Assembly (NCBI RefSeq): GCF_900188105.1
Contig: NZ_FZNP01000013.1
Coordinates: 62,001 to 126,000, forward strand
Direction: 5' to 3'
Source of the DNA: Actinomadura mexicana
GTDB lineage: Bacteria; Actinomycetota; Actinomycetes; Streptosporangiales; Streptosporangiaceae
Length of the DNA stretch: 64,000 nucleotides
The position numbers and the translations under genes are program-made. The notes beneath the pieces were generated by a model. That model was not told where the DNA came from. It saw nothing but the letters and a program-made list of their open reading frames with translations, and made no database searches. Positions 40,031 through 48,529 of the stretch are shown here, in pieces (the first letter of the stretch is position 1; each line of letters opens with the position of its first letter).

Positions 40031-41515
40031 ATGTCGCTGGCGAGTTCGACCGGCGGACCCAGGACCCCACCCGGATTGGAATCCCTCATGCCCCCTGACG
40101 CACTGACGGCCCGGACGTCACCGGCCCGGATTGAACGCCCGACCGCCATCGTCGTCGTGCTCTGCGCGGCGGCGTTCATGGCCATGCTCGACGTCTTCGT
40201 GGTCAACGTCGCGTTCACCGCCATCGGGCGCAGCTTCCCGGGCGCGTCGTTGCCGGACCTCAGCTGGGTTCTCAACGCGTACGCCATCGTCTACGCGGCG
40301 CTGCTGATCCCGGCCGGACGTCTGGCCGACCGGCACAGCCGCAAGAGGGGATTCCTGGTCGGCCTGGCCCTGTTCACCCTGGCCAGTGCCGCGTGCGCGT
40401 TCGCTCCCTCACTGTGGTGGCTGGTGGCGTTCCGAGTTCTGCAGGCGGCCGGCGCCGCCGCGCTCACCCCGGCCAGCCTCGGACTCATGCTCACCGCGCT
40501 GCCTCCCGAAAGGCGCGCGGGCGCGGTGAAGATCTGGGCGACCACCAGTTCCCTCGCCGGTGCCCTCGGCCCCGTCGCCGGCGGCGTTCTGCTCCAGGTG
40601 TCCTGGCACTGGATCTTCCTGATCAACCTGCCCGTCGGGCTGCTGGCCTTCGTCGCCGCGCAGCGCCTGGTCCCGGACAGCCGTGACGAGTCCGTCGTCC
40701 GGTCGCCCGACCTCACCGGCGCGGCCGTCCTCGCCGTCGCGATCGGCGCGGCCGCGCTCGGCCTGGTGAAGGGCGACGAATGGGACTGGGCGGACGCCAG
40801 GACCCTGACCGCCTTCGGCGTCGCGATCCTCGGCATCGCCGTCATCGCCGCCCGGATCTCACGGCGTCCCGATCCGGTCATCGACCCGGCGCTGTTCCGG
40901 GTGCGGACCTTCGTGTGGGCCAACGTCACCGTGCTGGTGTTCTGCACCGCGTTCGGCGCGCTCTTCTTCAGCGTCGTGCTGTGGCTGGAGAACGCCGCCG
41001 GGTTCTCCGAGATCCGCACCGGACTCGCCATCGCTCCAGGGCCGCTGATGGTGCCGATCTTCGCTGCCGTCGGCCAGCGACTGGTGCGGCGTATGCCGGT
41101 CGGTCTCCTGGTGGCCCTGGGCAATCTGCTGTTCTGCGTCGGCACGCTGATGCTCGCCGCGGGCGCCTCCACCGACCCGCGCTACCTGACGCAGATCCTG
41201 CCGGGATGGATCATCGTCGGCATCGGCATCGGCCTGGCCCTGCCCAGCATGATCGGTGCCGCCACGAAAGATCTGCCGAAGACCCAGGCCGCCACCGGCA
41301 GCGCCGTGGTGAACACCTGCCGGCAGCTCGGCTACGTCCTCGGCGTCGCCGTCCTGATCGCCGTCCTCGGCTCCCTCGACGGCTCGTCCGATCACCTGCC
41401 GACGACCTTCCGGCACGGCTGGTGGTTCATCGCCCTCGCCGCGGCCCTCAGTGCCGTCACCGCGCTCGGCATCACACCCGTGCGCGCGACCCGCCGGTCC
41501 AGACCGGCGGCTTGA
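40031..41515 (+). CDS. MFS multidrug exporter, DHA2 (EmrB/QacA) type
   Basis: 494 aa with about 14 hydrophobic segments. Motif C-like LDVFVVNVAFTAIG in helix 1, loop GRLADRHSRKRGF (motif A), and PVAGGVLLQVSWHWIFLINLPVG are all typical of DHA2 proton-drug antiporters. The first ~30 residues are polar; a Met at 40088 is an alternative start. The gene is controlled by the divergent HxlR, a common resistance arrangement. Confidence 0.93.
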   Translation: MSLASSTGGPRTPPGLESLMPPDALTARTSPARIERPTAIVVVLCAAAFMAMLDVFVVNVAFTAIGRSFPGASLPDLSWVLNAYAIVYAALLIPAGRLADRHSRKRGFLVGLALFTLASAACAFAPSLWWLVAFRVLQAAGAAALTPASLGLMLTALPPERRAGAVKIWATTSSLAGALGPVAGGVLLQVSWHWIFLINLPVGLLAFVAAQRLVPDSRDESVVRSPDLTGAAVLAVAIGAAALGLVKGDEWDWADARTLTAFGVAILGIAVIAARISRRPDPVIDPALFRVRTFVWANVTVLVFCTAFGALFFSVVLWLENAAGFSEIRTGLAIAPGPLMVPIFAAVGQRLVRRMPVGLLVALGNLLFCVGTLMLAAGASTDPRYLTQILPGWIIVGIGIGLALPSMIGAATKDLPKTQAATGSAVVNTCRQLGYVLGVAVLIAVLGSLDGSSDHLPTTFRHGWWFIALAAALSAVTALGITPVRATRRSRPAA

Positions 41516-42758: not shown

Positions 42759-43082
42759 TCAGGTGAGCTCGTAGTTCTGCAGGACGGCGATGGCCTTGAC
42801 CAGGTGGCCGGCCTTGCTGGGGCTGCAGCGGAGCTTGTGGAGGATTCGCCATGATTCGAGCTGGGCGTTCGCGCGTTCGCCGGGCCCGCGGAGCTTGGCG
42901 TGCGCCCGGTTGGCCTGCTTCTGCGACTCGGGCTTGTTCTTGCCCTTGTAGGGCGGGATGACGACCGAGGCTTCGGCTCCTTGGTAGGACTTGTCGGACA
43001 GGGTGAGGATTCCGGCCTTCTGCAGCGCGCGCAGGATGCCCCGGACGCGGACGGCGGTGAGGTCGTGGATCTTGCCGGGCAT
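42759..43082 (-). mobile_element. 3' fragment of an IS5-type (DDE_Tnp_4) transposase gene
   Basis: The 107 codons encode DLTAVRVRGILRALQKAGIL, LSDKSYQGAEASVVIPPYKG, NRAHAKLRGPGERANAQLES and LRCSPSKAGHLVKAIAVLQN, the C-terminal third of the transposase with the last catalytic region but no N-terminus. The end next to 42745 shows ACTGACCCTTTTTCATCC, similar to the terminal repeat of the MITE at 41604, so both derive from related elements. The 5' side is cut at about 43090, where the duplicated module begins. Confidence 0.85.
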
Positions 43083-43739: not shown

Positions 43740-44552
43740 TTGACTTCCGCGAATGACCTTGATCCAGACAACGATCACTGGCACTGGCTTGCCTCTGACC
43801 TGCGCATATGGCGCACAGAAAGGAACATGACACAGGAAGCCCTGGGAAGACTTCTGGGTGTGACTAAATCTCACGTTTCGAACTGGGAATCGGGCCGCGA
43901 AAACCTACCCATGAAGCACGCCGAAACTTTAGACCTGGTTTGGCGCACTCGCGGCCATTTCACCCGGCTTCGACGATTAGCCGTGAGAACACACGACCCA
44001 GGCTGGTGGTCCCAATACACTCCCTTGGAGGCGAAAGCGACCTGTGTGAGCTACTGGGCACTCGCAATCATCCCTGGGCTGCTCCAGATCGAGGACTACG
44101 CCCGAACGCTGCTTGAAGATGGCCAGATCATTGAGGACGTCGAAGCGGCCGTTGCGGCACGCATGGCGAGGCAAGCGGTCCTCCAACGAGAGAGGCCTCC
44201 CGAGCTGCGCATCCTGCTCAACGAGGCGGCGTTAGAACAGCCGGTCGGCGGACCTGAGGTCATGCGACAACAGCTCACCCATCTGATAACCCTTAGCCAC
44301 AGACGAAACGTCATCCTTCGCACTGTGCCACGCGACGTGGGGGCGCATATCGGCCTGGACGGCTCGTTCACCCTTCTAAGCGGAGGAAACTGGTCTGCGG
44401 CCTACATGGAAGCGAATACAGGTGGCAGACTGACGCACGACCCCACGATGCTTGACGACTTCGTAAGGCGCTTCGACCTCATAGGCTCGGAAGCCTTGTC
44501 AGCGTCCGCCTCACGGAGTCATGTCGCCCGGATTATGGAGGCCATGAAGTGA
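43740..44552 (+). CDS. XRE-family regulator with DUF5753 (WhiJ-like)
   Basis: 270 aa from the TTG at 43740. N-terminal XRE HTH (about 20-75): LRIWRTERNMTQEALGRLLG, VTKSHVSNWESGRENLP; then DUF5753 (about 85-265), with YWALAIIPGLLQIEDYARTL and LNEAALEQPVGGPEVM, HLITLSHRRNVILRTVP. This is the WhiJ-type architecture of Streptomyces and relatives. The stop overlaps the DUF397 start. Lower-GC codons than neighbours. Likely controls the downstream graspetide genes or its own module. Confidence 0.92.
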   Translation: MTSANDLDPDNDHWHWLASDLRIWRTERNMTQEALGRLLGVTKSHVSNWESGRENLPMKHAETLDLVWRTRGHFTRLRRLAVRTHDPGWWSQYTPLEAKATCVSYWALAIIPGLLQIEDYARTLLEDGQIIEDVEAAVAARMARQAVLQRERPPELRILLNEAALEQPVGGPEVMRQQLTHLITLSHRRNVILRTVPRDVGAHIGLDGSFTLLSGGNWSAAYMEANTGGRLTHDPTMLDDFVRRFDLIGSEALSASASRSHVARIMEAMK

Positions 44553-44734
44553 TCGAATGGCGGAAGGCCAGTCGGAGCAACGCGTCCGGAAACGAATGCG
44601 TGGAGGTAGCCGCTCTCGCAGAGGGACGCGGCATCAGAGACAGCAAGGCACCCGAAACCGGCCACCTCACCCTAACCTCCACAAGCTTCGCCCAGCTCAT
44701 CACCCGCGTGAAGGGCGGAGACCTGGACCTCTAA
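44549..44734 (+). CDS. DUF397 (BldB-related) small protein
   Basis: 61 aa from the GTG at 44549 that overlaps the XRE stop (GTGA). Complete DUF397 pattern: WRKASRSNASGNECVEVA, then GIRDSKAPE and the C-terminal FAQLITRVKGGDLDL. Such proteins are partners of WhiJ-like regulators; BldB is the best-known member. Translational coupling supports a toxin-antitoxin-like or partner-type stoichiometry, which is inference. Confidence 0.93.
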   Translation: MIEWRKASRSNASGNECVEVAALAEGRGIRDSKAPETGHLTLTSTSFAQLITRVKGGDLDL

Positions 44735-44795: not shown

Positions 44796-44881
44796 AAGGC
44801 CCCAGGGCCGGCCCACCAAGCGGAGGCCATGCAGTGAGCGAGCCGATATGGCAAAAAACCAGCTCTAGAGGACCGTCCACC

Positions 44882-45139
44882 ATGACCGAGAGCCCGTTGG
44901 TTCACGCTCGTGACCGCTTCCCACTCGGCCTCCCGGGGCACGTTGTGCCCGTCAGCGCCCAGCAGCCGACTCCCGACGCTCGCCCGTGGGGAATGGACCA
45001 GGCCGTCGATCCCGCCCCGGTCCGGGCCATGGGCAAGCACGGTAAGCCCACCAGCACCCGGCAAGAGAAGGTTGCAACCGAGTACACCGACGACAGCAAG
45101 ACCAAGAAGGACGACTACACACAGACGGTGACCGACTGA
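44882..45139 (+). CDS. Graspetide precursor peptide (ATP-grasp-modified RiPP)
   Basis: 85 aa from the ATG at 44882; a GTG at 44834 with GGAGG 7 nt upstream would add 16 residues. The leader contains RFPLGLPGHVVPVSAQQPTP and DARPWGM (residues 32-38), the conserved leader block of actinomycete ATP-grasp RiPPs. The putative core (about 52-85) is rich in Thr/Ser/Lys and Asp/Glu: VATEYTDDSKTKKDDYTQT. TDD (69-71) and DDYT (77-80) flank SKTKK, suggesting a hairpin with side-chain esters across the stem. The stop overlaps the ligase start (TGATG). Confidence 0.88.
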   Translation: MTESPLVHARDRFPLGLPGHVVPVSAQQPTPDARPWGMDQAVDPAPVRAMGKHGKPTSTRQEKVATEYTDDSKTKKDDYTQTVTD

Positions 45140-46101
45140 TGCCAGATTCGCTGGTTCTCCTGCTCGCCGAGCAGGACGACGGGGAAGCGGCATACGTCCG
45201 TGATGCGCTCGCTCAACGCGGCGCCCGCGTGATGCGGTTCGACACCGCCTCGTTTCCGTCTGCGTCCAGCGCGAGTTTCCGCCTTGCCCGCGAAGGATGG
45301 CGGGGACGCCTCACCACGCCCGACGGAGTCATCCCACTAGAAGACGTCACGGCGGTGTACTACCGGCAACCGCAACCGTTTCGATTCCCGGCCACCTTAA
45401 GCGAGCCGGAACGGCGATTCGCCACCGTGGAAGCCCGGTTCGGTTTCGGCGGGGTGTTCATGTCGCTGCCCGCCCGTTGGGTATCGCACCCGGCACGGTT
45501 GGCCGACGCCGAGTACCGGCCGCTCCAGATGGCCACAGCCGCCCGCTGCGGCTTCACCCTCCCCGCGAGTCTGCTCACCAACAGCCCCAGCGACGCCGAG
45601 ACGTTCGCCCGTTGCTGTGAGGGCGTGGTCTACAAAGCCACTATGCACAAGCTGGTCAGCGAGGCCGACCGGGTGAAGCTGATCTACACCACACCCGTGG
45701 ACCCGGACGCCCTCGACACCCGGGTGTCCACCACCTTGCACCTCTTCCAAGCCAACATCCGCAAAAGCCATGACGTCCGCCTGGTCGCCACCGCCGGCGG
45801 CCAGGCGCACGCTGTCGCGATCTTCACCGAAGACCTGCACGGACGTCAGGACTTCCGCACCGCCTATGACACCCTCAGCTACGCCGTCATCGCCGTCCCC
45901 TCCGACGTGGCCGATGCCTGCCACGCCTACCTCTCGGCGCTCGACCTGGCGTTGGGTGTGTTCGACTTCGCGGTGACCGACGACGGGGCATGGTGGTTCC
46001 TAGAATGCGGCCCCGGCGCCCAATGGGCCTGGCTGCAGGAACGCACTGGGGCACCCATCTCCGACGCCATCGCCGACACCCTTCTAGGGGCCGCAGCATG
46101 A
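45139..46101 (+). CDS. ATP-grasp graspetide ligase (MvdD/MdnC-like)
   Basis: 320 aa. N-terminal pre-grasp region (LVLLLAEQDDGEAAYVRDAL), then LADAEYRPLQMATAARCGFTLP, the ATP-binding Lys region VYKATMHKLVS, FQANIRKSHDVRLVAT, and the metal-binding end FDFAVTDDGAWWFLECGPGAQW. Catalyses ATP-dependent ester (or amide) formation between Asp/Glu side chains and Thr/Ser (or Lys) of the precursor core, guided by the leader. In the last motif the Asn of the usual ExN pair is Gly (ECGP). Translationally coupled on both sides. Confidence 0.92.
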   Translation: MPDSLVLLLAEQDDGEAAYVRDALAQRGARVMRFDTASFPSASSASFRLAREGWRGRLTTPDGVIPLEDVTAVYYRQPQPFRFPATLSEPERRFATVEARFGFGGVFMSLPARWVSHPARLADAEYRPLQMATAARCGFTLPASLLTNSPSDAETFARCCEGVVYKATMHKLVSEADRVKLIYTTPVDPDALDTRVSTTLHLFQANIRKSHDVRLVATAGGQAHAVAIFTEDLHGRQDFRTAYDTLSYAVIAVPSDVADACHAYLSALDLALGVFDFAVTDDGAWWFLECGPGAQWAWLQERTGAPISDAIADTLLGAAA

Positions 46102-47234
46102 CCGTCCCACCCGACACATGGCGAACCCACGCACAAGCCCTAGCCGATTTGCTCAGCGACCAAGGCGCTATCACCGAGCCTGTGTGGCGCAGGACAGTCG
46201 CCCGCGTTCCCCGCCACGTTTTCGTCCCCGCCTTCTACTCCGACGACGACCCGCCCGACCTGGTGGACGCCACGGACCCGCGCTGGCTTCGACTCGCCTA
46301 CTCCAACGACACGCTCGTCACCCAGCGCAAGGAACACCCCGATCAGCCCGGCATGCTGTGGTCCACCAGCTCCAGCACCCGCCCGAGTCTGATGCTCCGG
46401 ATGTTACAGATCCTGGACGTGGCCGACGGCATGAGCGTTCTGGAGATCGGCACCGGCACCGGCTACAACGCCGCGTTGCTGTCCGAGCGGCTCGGCTCGT
46501 CACAGGTCGTCAGTGTGGACATCGACCCCCACCTGATCAACCTAGCCCGGAAGCGGCTGGCCGATGCCGGCTATCACCCCTCACTCATGGCGGGAGACGG
46601 CGCCCGGGGTTGCCCCGCCCGCGCTCCCTACGATCGGCTCATAGCCACCGTGGCCACCGAACGCGTCCCGAACACATGGGTGGACCAGACCCGCCCCGGC
46701 GGCATCGTCCTGGCCGACGTCCGGCCGCGCGGCATGACATGGGCCGGGGCACTCGCACGCCTCACCGTGGCCGACGACGGCACCGCGACCGGCCCTCTGG
46801 TCTCCTGCACCTGGGGATTCATGTCCGCCCGTCGCGACGTCGCGCTACCCGGCATCCCCGAAGGCGTGCCCATCGACACCAGCACCGCCCATACCCGCAC
46901 CAGCGACGTCGGCCGCAACGCCCTCCGCACTCCTGGGCTGTCCCTGCTGGTCTGGCAGCGCCTTCCCGGCGTCAACGCCTTCCCTGGTACCACCACGACC
47001 CGGCTCACCACTCCTGACGGCTCATGGGCGAATATTTCGGGCGACGCCCCCGCCAAGGTCGAGCACGGCGGCCCATCCGACATCTGGCGTCAAGTCGAAA
47101 ACGCCCACGCCTGGTGGACCGCGCACGACCGCCCCGACGTCGAAGCGTTCGGCCTCACCATCGGCCACGACCAGCACCGCCTGTGGTTCCAGACGCCCGA
47201 AGGCGAGAGCTGGCCCGCCCCCGGACAGCCGTAG
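46098..47234 (+). CDS. PIMT-like methyltransferase of the graspetide cluster (aspartimide-forming)
   Basis: 378 aa from the ATG at 46098 (ATGA overlap with the ligase). The protein-L-isoaspartate O-methyltransferase core has motif I VLEIGTGTGYNAALLSERL, SVDIDPHLINLARKRL and GDGARGCPARAPYDRLIATV; about 170 C-terminal residues are extra compared with housekeeping PIMT (~210 aa). This longer form is the class shown for fuscimiditide-type graspetides to methylate a specific Asp of the ester-linked peptide, which then closes to an aspartimide. Target Asp here is unknown. Confidence 0.9.
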   Translation: MTVPPDTWRTHAQALADLLSDQGAITEPVWRRTVARVPRHVFVPAFYSDDDPPDLVDATDPRWLRLAYSNDTLVTQRKEHPDQPGMLWSTSSSTRPSLMLRMLQILDVADGMSVLEIGTGTGYNAALLSERLGSSQVVSVDIDPHLINLARKRLADAGYHPSLMAGDGARGCPARAPYDRLIATVATERVPNTWVDQTRPGGIVLADVRPRGMTWAGALARLTVADDGTATGPLVSCTWGFMSARRDVALPGIPEGVPIDTSTAHTRTSDVGRNALRTPGLSLLVWQRLPGVNAFPGTTTTRLTTPDGSWANISGDAPAKVEHGGPSDIWRQVENAHAWWTAHDRPDVEAFGLTIGHDQHRLWFQTPEGESWPAPGQP

Positions 47235-47397: not shown

Positions 47398-47671
47398 ATC
47401 TCATCACCTCGCACCCCGAGCATTACGACGAACGTTGCAGGATATCTACTTCGCCGTATTCTTCCTAGGGGTCTGCCGACTTGGGCATCAACTTCCTTAG
47501 CGTCCCAGTCAGTCGGGGGCGCCGTCGACCGTTAAGGGGTGCGCCCCCGTGAAACCACGGGCTATTTCCACTGAGGGTCACGGTTTGCCGTCTCAAGCGG
47601 GCCAGATCATTCAGAGGCACCAGCGCATGCGCCGCCCGGCCGTACGATTTCTGAAAAGCTTGGAGGGAATC
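47398..47671. other. Spacer before the GIY-YIG/RAMA gene
   Basis: 274 bp, locally AT-rich around 47410-47520 (e.g. GGATATCTACTTCGCCGTATTC). Probably promoter DNA. A GTG at 47549 opens the downstream frame earlier, but the 41 codons between do not look coding. Confidence 0.4.
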
Positions 47672-48529
47672 TTGAAGATCGGTGCGGTCGACAGCCTAGC
47701 GACGAACGTGGTCATCCCCGGATCGGCCCAGGAGCCGATCGATGTCTACATCGATCATTTCGCCCTGCGTATGGCCATCGTGGAACGCGCGGGGGCAAGA
47801 ACTGTCGGCTCCGACTGGGACGTAGCCGGTGTCTACGCACTCCTCGACCCCACCGCCTCCGACGGAACGTGGGGCGCCTACGTAGGCAAGGCTCCTGCGG
47901 GCATCAGATCTCGGCTATCGACCCACCTCAGCCAGAAAGACCACTGGTCGCGCGCTGTCCTGGTACGCAGGGACACTAAGTACGGCTTCCACTCGGCCCA
48001 GGTCGGATGGCTTGAGGGGCGCCTGTACGACCTCCTCAACGCGGCCTCGAGCGCCCGTCTCCACAACATGCGCCGCCCGGTCGACGAAACGCTTCCGCCA
48101 CACGATCGCCAGATGCTCGAATCCTGCGTCATTCCGTTCGTCCGCGTCCTGCGTCTCCTCGGCTACGACACCGCGCCGCCCAGCGTGAGAACCGAACAGA
48201 CGCCCCTCGCCCCGCAAATGTCGAGCGGTGACGGCAAGAGGGTCAGGCGGAGGATTCACGGCACGGTGCGAGACCTCCTGGTTGCAGGCCTCCTTGAACC
48301 ACAAGCGAAACTCGTCTCCACCAGCCGGGCTCACCCAGCTGAAGCAACGGTCTTGCCCGACGGGCGCATCGAGCACGACGGGCGCATCTTCGGCAGCCCC
48401 TCGGGCGCGGCCGACTATGTCACCCAGGGTGACGAGAACGGCTGGACATTCTGGGCGGTGAAGAGCGAGACCGGCAGGATCACCCTCGCGTTCCTCCGAG
48501 AGCGTCTCAACGCGCCCTCCGCAGACTGA
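47672..48529 (+). CDS. GIY-YIG-like protein with C-terminal RAMA domain
   Basis: 285 aa from the TTG at 47672 (GGAGGG 5 nt upstream); GTG 47549 would give 326 aa. Residues ~45-110 carry a GIY-YIG-like nuclease core (DVAGVYALLDP..., GAYVGKAPAGIRSRLSTHL, Arg in SRLSTHLSQKDHW, and Glu in VGWLEGRLYDLLN). The C-terminal 95 residues are a RAMA domain: LLVAGLLEPQAKLV, ATVLPDGRIEHDGRIFGSPS, AADYVTQGDENGWTFWAVKS. RAMA is linked to modified-DNA recognition and restriction. A defence or modified-DNA-cleavage function is inferred. Confidence 0.75.
   Translation: MKIGAVDSLATNVVIPGSAQEPIDVYIDHFALRMAIVERAGARTVGSDWDVAGVYALLDPTASDGTWGAYVGKAPAGIRSRLSTHLSQKDHWSRAVLVRRDTKYGFHSAQVGWLEGRLYDLLNAASSARLHNMRRPVDETLPPHDRQMLESCVIPFVRVLRLLGYDTAPPSVRTEQTPLAPQMSSGDGKRVRRRIHGTVRDLLVAGLLEPQAKLVSTSRAHPAEATVLPDGRIEHDGRIFGSPSGAADYVTQGDENGWTFWAVKSETGRITLAFLRERLNAPSAD

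Follow-up and report, generated by a model that had tools for sequence, protein, structure and literature searches.

A three-gene cluster in Actinomadura mexicana, which combines a precursor peptide, an ATP-grasp ligase and a methyltransferase of the PIMT type, very probably makes a graspimiditide, for which two esters, T66-D77 and T57-D85, and an aspartimide at D71 are predicted from sequence. The cluster was analysed within a window, by which we mean the whole 64,000-nucleotide stretch of DNA and to which all positions refer unless a locus is named. Family relationships, gene order, conservation and selection were computed directly, and from them we infer all chemical steps, the pairing of the esters and the identity of the modified Asp. 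Group 13 graspetides, also termed graspimiditides, combine a ligase of the TIGR04187 kind, an adjoining PIMT homologue with an extension, an RP[F/W]G leader motif and a Thr/Asp core around an Asp-containing loop of 10-12 residues, and each of these features is recognisable in the window cluster. The cluster hence appears to belong to a known peptide family, in which its precursors form a subfamily of their own and its ligase carries an unexplained substitution; the subfamily may be identical to one of the published group 13 sequence clusters.

Gene organisation and conservation

The three frames form one tight unit, in which the TGA stop codon of the precursor gene overlaps the ATG of the ligase gene in TGATG (45137-45141) and the ligase stop overlaps the methyltransferase start in ATGA (46098-46101), as an earlier sequence-only reading had noted and as rereading of the sequence confirmed (Table 1). 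The ligase gene sits between the precursor and methyltransferase genes, unlike the two-gene, ligase-free layout of imiditides and type I pamtides. The same reading had listed no transporter or protease in the cluster, and indeed none was found between 42.5 and 49.6 kb of the window; the closest transporter gene, of the MFS type, lies at 40031-41515, some 3.4 kb upstream of the precursor. Promoter and terminator scans returned none.

Table 1. Genes of the cluster and of the adjoining regulatory module (window positions).
Feature	Position	Strand	Evidence
Precursor peptide, 85 aa	44882..45139	+	Homologues from 13 other genomes, adjacent to a TIGR04187-like ligase; leader alignment with fuscimiditide precursor
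ATP-grasp ligase (graspetide synthetase), 320 aa	45139..46101	+	TIGR04187 E 8.5e-101; PDB relatives 9bou, 5ig8, 7m4s
PIMT-like (PAMT) O-methyltransferase, 378 aa, C-terminal extension	46098..47234	+	TIGR04188 E 3.4e-105; PCMT
WhiJ-like XRE regulator with DUF5753, candidate regulator	43740..44552	+	PF19054 4.4e-48
DUF397 partner of WhiJ-like regulator	44549..44734	+	PF04149 6.3e-18

Five further Actinomadura have the trio in this order, with 85-residue precursors that are 67-88% identical, and every named genome with a close ligase relative is an Actinomadura; in A. rubrisoli, a frameshift breaks up the ligase. When 347 genomes of the order were searched, eight more proved to combine a ligase of 49-57% identity with a matching precursor, and one further precursor (L092) came up, with the same core pattern and a D-N step in its loop, for which only part of a ligase lies in the stretch read. 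An even sample of 395 genomes across the class gave strong matches only inside the window's own family. Measured against A. syzygii, dN/dS is 0.25 for the precursor, 0.137 for the ligase and 0.21 for the methyltransferase, and all three genes are under purifying selection. Since the order of the trio and its precursor recur in five Actinomadura and dN/dS is low, the unit is far from a chance arrangement; conservation and selection likewise reject the precursor as a chance open reading frame.

Precursor and predicted cross-links

The conserved start of the precursor is ATG 44882, as the homologues share only the 85-residue form, which begins with M[TN]E-PLV or similar. GTG 44834, taken as the start in the sequence-only reading, is in frame with this ATG, but the extension that it adds upstream is absent in relatives, and both 44834 and 44774 were rejected as starts for lack of conservation. 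The segment 44834-44881 (+) reads VSEPIWQKTSSRGPST, which is similar to the WRKSS with which DUF397 proteins begin, and has no Pfam match; as A. syzygii has two DUF397 genes there, the segment could be what remains of a second one.

The leader spans residues 1 to about 51 and carries DRFPLG and RPWG (R34-P35-W36-G37), followed by the core at about 52-85 (GKHGKPTSTRQEKVATEYTDDSKTKKDDYTQTVTD, from residue 51). DRFPLG...RPWGM of the window aligns with DAFPLG...RPFGM of the fuscimiditide precursor, in which RPFG is the motif that recruits the ligase (PMC13003496). No NCBIfam or Pfam model matches the window precursor, and TIGR04186, the curated precursor model, matches none of the 14 subfamily precursors (window and 13 homologues); only the fuscimiditide precursor is matched among 15 precursors run against this model, which is an annotation aid and does not define the chemistry. 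Searches with the precursor gave only chance matches in the PDB and no match in plasmid records. The suggestion that the core was unfamiliar and the product possibly new is hence half borne out: the core does fall outside TIGR04186, and the kind of product is already known.

When the cores of the 14 subfamily precursors are aligned, T57, T66, D77 and D85 are invariant (14/14, one precursor having a TV insertion before its last two residues), T80, T82 and T84 are kept in nearly all, and D71 in 13. T66 and D77 enclose exactly 10 residues (loop 67-76), and D71 occupies loop position 5. It is followed by Ser in Actinomadura and by Ser, Gly or Asn elsewhere; the corresponding residue is Gly in the four characterised graspimiditides, Ser and Asn being among others foreseen from sequence (PMC13001092). 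Within Actinomadura, T57, S58 and T59 are all conserved, and outside the genus the triplet reads TTT, TKT or TEN. In L060 the loop has NNGG in place of xxD[SG], so that the Asp at position 71 is missing; beside the missing residue stands an Asn-Gly step, which is prone to spontaneous succinimide formation.

The conserved positions, the 10-residue loop, the leader alignment and the recruiting role of RPFG together lead us to predict that T66 is esterified with D77 and T57 with D85, and that D71 forms the aspartimide. The sequence-only reading had proposed a hairpin with TDD-SKTKK-DDYT symmetry. An ester stem of TDD and DDYT was rejected, since T69, D70 and D78 are variable (position 78 is Asp in most homologues and Thr in several); most of that segment would be loop, with the stem lying further out, at the conserved T57, T66, D77 and D85.

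According to the proposed pathway, the ligase would bind the RPWG motif of the leader, activate Asp side chains with ATP and join them to Thr hydroxyls. The expected product is a bicyclic stem-loop, in which the inner ester T66-D77 would close the 10-residue loop and T57-D85 would form the outer ester, with a total change of -36 Da. The methyltransferase would then methylate D71 in the loop, and loss of methanol would give the aspartimide at a further -18 Da net, which could open by hydrolysis, chiefly to isoaspartate. Genes elsewhere would serve to remove the leader and export the product.

Enzymes, gene loss and competing readings

The best match of the ligase is TIGR04187 (337 bits, under the curated cut-off of 350), and in the tree it groups with ligases of other precursor-ligase-methyltransferase clusters. 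Near the C-terminus its motif FLECGPGAQW places E289-C290-G291 where E-x-N is read in every compared ligase outside the clade, including other Actinomadura ligases and graspetide ligases of solved structure; E-x-N is conserved in the relatives compared and is not included in the class definition. The Asn of E-x-N is presumed to bind Mg2+, as in ATP-grasp enzymes generally. The E-C-G group comprises 12 ligases, namely that of the window and 11 relatives, of which 11 were read directly and the frameshift-interrupted L013 was included because of where it falls in the clade. Together with three E-x-N ligases that have the same precursor type (L057, L058 and L060), it makes up a fully supported set of 15; the drawn tree needs two changes between the motifs, and one is compatible with the supported branches. 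Other conserved residues (K166, R214, D276 and E289) are present in the alignment, and purifying selection on the gene argues that the ligase probably works despite E-C-G. No mention of this motif was found in abstracts and passages of the graspetide literature, which is weak evidence. An AlphaFold model of the ligase, built with four sequences, had a mean pLDDT of 49 and was discarded.

For the methyltransferase, TIGR04188 is the best match (352 bits, under the cut-off of 380). The PCMT match covers residues 89-210, including the SAM motif EIGTGTGYN (116-124), and about 168 further residues follow, in good agreement with the 378-residue PIMT homologue and extension of about 170 residues described from sequence alone. 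At the WxxxGxP position of this extension, the window has W340-TAH-D344-R-P346 (WTAHDRP), the Gly found in 4/6 aligned proteins being Asp here and Asn in A. syzygii. An AlphaFold model of the methyltransferase, with a mean pLDDT of 65.8 and much of the chain beyond residue 236 weakly predicted, can be aligned with PIMT structures. One of them, 1dl5, which is cited for a similar C-terminal domain, aligns over model residues 11-370 at an rmsd of 8.5, with low confidence in the C-terminal part. The assignment to the fuscimiditide-type class, made in the sequence-only reading, is upheld by the relationship of the two enzymes to TIGR04187 and TIGR04188, the RPWG/RPFG alignment and the extension with its near-WxxxGxP motif.

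Some relatives have lost parts of the cluster. Three Actinomadura, namely A. viridilutea (L048), L049 and L050, lack the precursor and retain only a C-terminal remnant of the ligase, with differing break points, next to a methyltransferase frame that is open along its length. These orphan methyltransferases have dN/dS of 0.19-0.48 against relatives, which is not clearly different from cluster copies and is compatible with recent loss; dN/dS cannot separate retained function from recent loss, and the idea that they are strongly selected was rejected. A transposase fragment lies at the junction in L050, and in A. roseirufa (L051, 8811-9299) a decayed cluster consists of the precursor core and pieces of the ligase, the methyltransferase being gone. 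The window genome itself encodes a second precursor on contig C16 (L052:8566-8841; TIGR04186, 61.8 bits), directly followed by a PIMT homologue with no ligase between them (pair at L052:8566-10033). Relatives of this precursor have a ligase at the corresponding place, and the window ligase is the only TIGR04187 match found in its genome; its acting in trans on the C16 precursor is a possibility.

Several observations speak against the graspimiditide reading. Both enzymes fall just under their curated cut-offs and the precursor misses TIGR04186, L060 is without the Asp at position 71, and in the ligase Gly replaces the Asn shared by all ligases compared from outside the clade. This last replacement, which runs throughout the clade, would be explained if the E-C-G ligases had lost ester formation and acted as scaffolds or in other chemistry, leaving the methyltransferase as the main modifier, as in imiditides and pamtides; the three Actinomadura that keep an open methyltransferase would fit as well. 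We nevertheless consider such a loss quite improbable, as the ligase has the lowest dN/dS of the three genes, the precursor retains without exception the Thr and Asp residues that would form the esters, the close E-x-N relatives L057, L058 and L060 show the same precursor pattern, and the characterised graspimiditide methyltransferases leave linear precursors unmodified. A related but broader conjecture, in which the E-C-G ligases are synthetases with a changed metal site or ester formation has been abandoned, so that the lineage is moving from ester-linked graspimiditides to methyltransferase-only peptides, also seems improbable; were it true, the methyltransferase-only relatives would be later stages of the transition.

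It is somewhat less unlikely that the product is a graspimiditide with other links. S58 or T59 might take the place of T57 in the outer ester, all three being conserved within Actinomadura; an extra link might involve D78, present in most homologues; or a link might be made to the C-terminal carboxylate, as in the postulated bond of SsfA between a side chain and the C-terminus. The variation of S58 and T59 outside the genus and the replacement of D78 by Thr in several homologues speak against the first two of these options. That the cluster is decaying and gives no product in the window strain is very unlikely: genes have been lost from it in L048, L049, L050 and L051, but all three window frames are open and under purifying selection.

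Known systems and genomic surroundings

About 962 to 1432 graspimiditide clusters have been predicted and four products characterised (PMC13001092). The published links of fuscimiditide are T3-D22 and T7-D18, with a 10-residue loop. The frame that follows the ligase gene at L068 encodes ...WRPFGMRYGV...AGTMRVTYPDGQKPGQSDVEKD, and the core AGTMRVTYPDGQKPGQSDVEKD has T3, T7, Y8, S17, D18 and D22, which fit this description, so that we identify L068, on our own assignment, as the probable fuscimiditide locus of Thermobifida fusca. Like the window cluster, the fuscimiditide system (ThfA/ThfB/ThfM) comprises a precursor, an ATP-grasp ligase and a PIMT homologue, and shares the RP[F/W]G leader motif, the 10-residue loop with its Asp and two esters, those of the window being predicted. 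It differs in stem spacing (9 and 8 residues in the window, 4 and 4 in fuscimiditide), in the loop Asp (position 5 followed by Ser, against position 3 followed by Gly), in gene order (A-B-M, against B-A-M at L068) and in the ligase motif (E-C-G against E-V-N), the ligases being about 39% identical. Amycolimiditide, albusimiditide and SsfA(BM) have the same gene set and stem-loop logic (PMC13001092), whereas amycolimiditide has four cross-links and SsfA a postulated five, more than the two predicted here, and their loops contain Asp-Gly. Imiditides and type I pamtides, which are frequent in Actinomadura (PMC13001092), also employ a PIMT homologue with a C-terminal domain, but act without an ATP-grasp ligase on a linear substrate.

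The cluster would thus represent a compact graspimiditide subfamily that is found in Actinomadura and other genomes of the order and is missed by the curated NCBI precursor model. It offers a clear and testable predicted link pattern, with the loop Asp often preceding Ser or Asn and not the Gly of the four characterised products. Replacement of the presumed metal-binding Asn by Gly amounts to a natural experiment on the ligands required by a graspetide ATP-grasp enzyme, and the relatives with differing gene losses, together with the ligase-less C16 pair, are material for studying how clusters are dismantled or enzymes shared.

Directly upstream of the cluster lie the WhiJ-like DUF5753 regulator and the DUF397 protein, with an RsbW-like ATPase gene divergent from them. 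Pairs of this type are pleiotropic regulators of antibiotic production in Streptomyces (PMC10364602), and the co-occurrence of DUF397/DUF5753 with group 13 graspetides has been published (PMC13097080). The pair was found upstream of only 2/6 orthologous clusters, those of the window and A. syzygii, by a search with the window WhiJ and reading of high-GC3 frames, which a very divergent regulator could escape; the WhiJ proteins of these two are 29.5% identical, their precursors 88%, and two other orthologous clusters have GntR-like and ATPase-like genes upstream instead. For most orthologues, the module was hence rejected as a conserved part of the cluster. The sequence-only reading had the cluster driven by this module: the pair does adjoin it, but the case for control is weak, and such control is possible in the window strain and no general property of the cluster. 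Further upstream, 42759-43082 (-) holds an IS5-family transposase fragment. On its other side, the cluster is adjoined by a RAMA-domain protein (47549-48529, +) that matches GIY-YIG weakly and PDC-S14, a candidate phage-defence family, strongly (3e-112).
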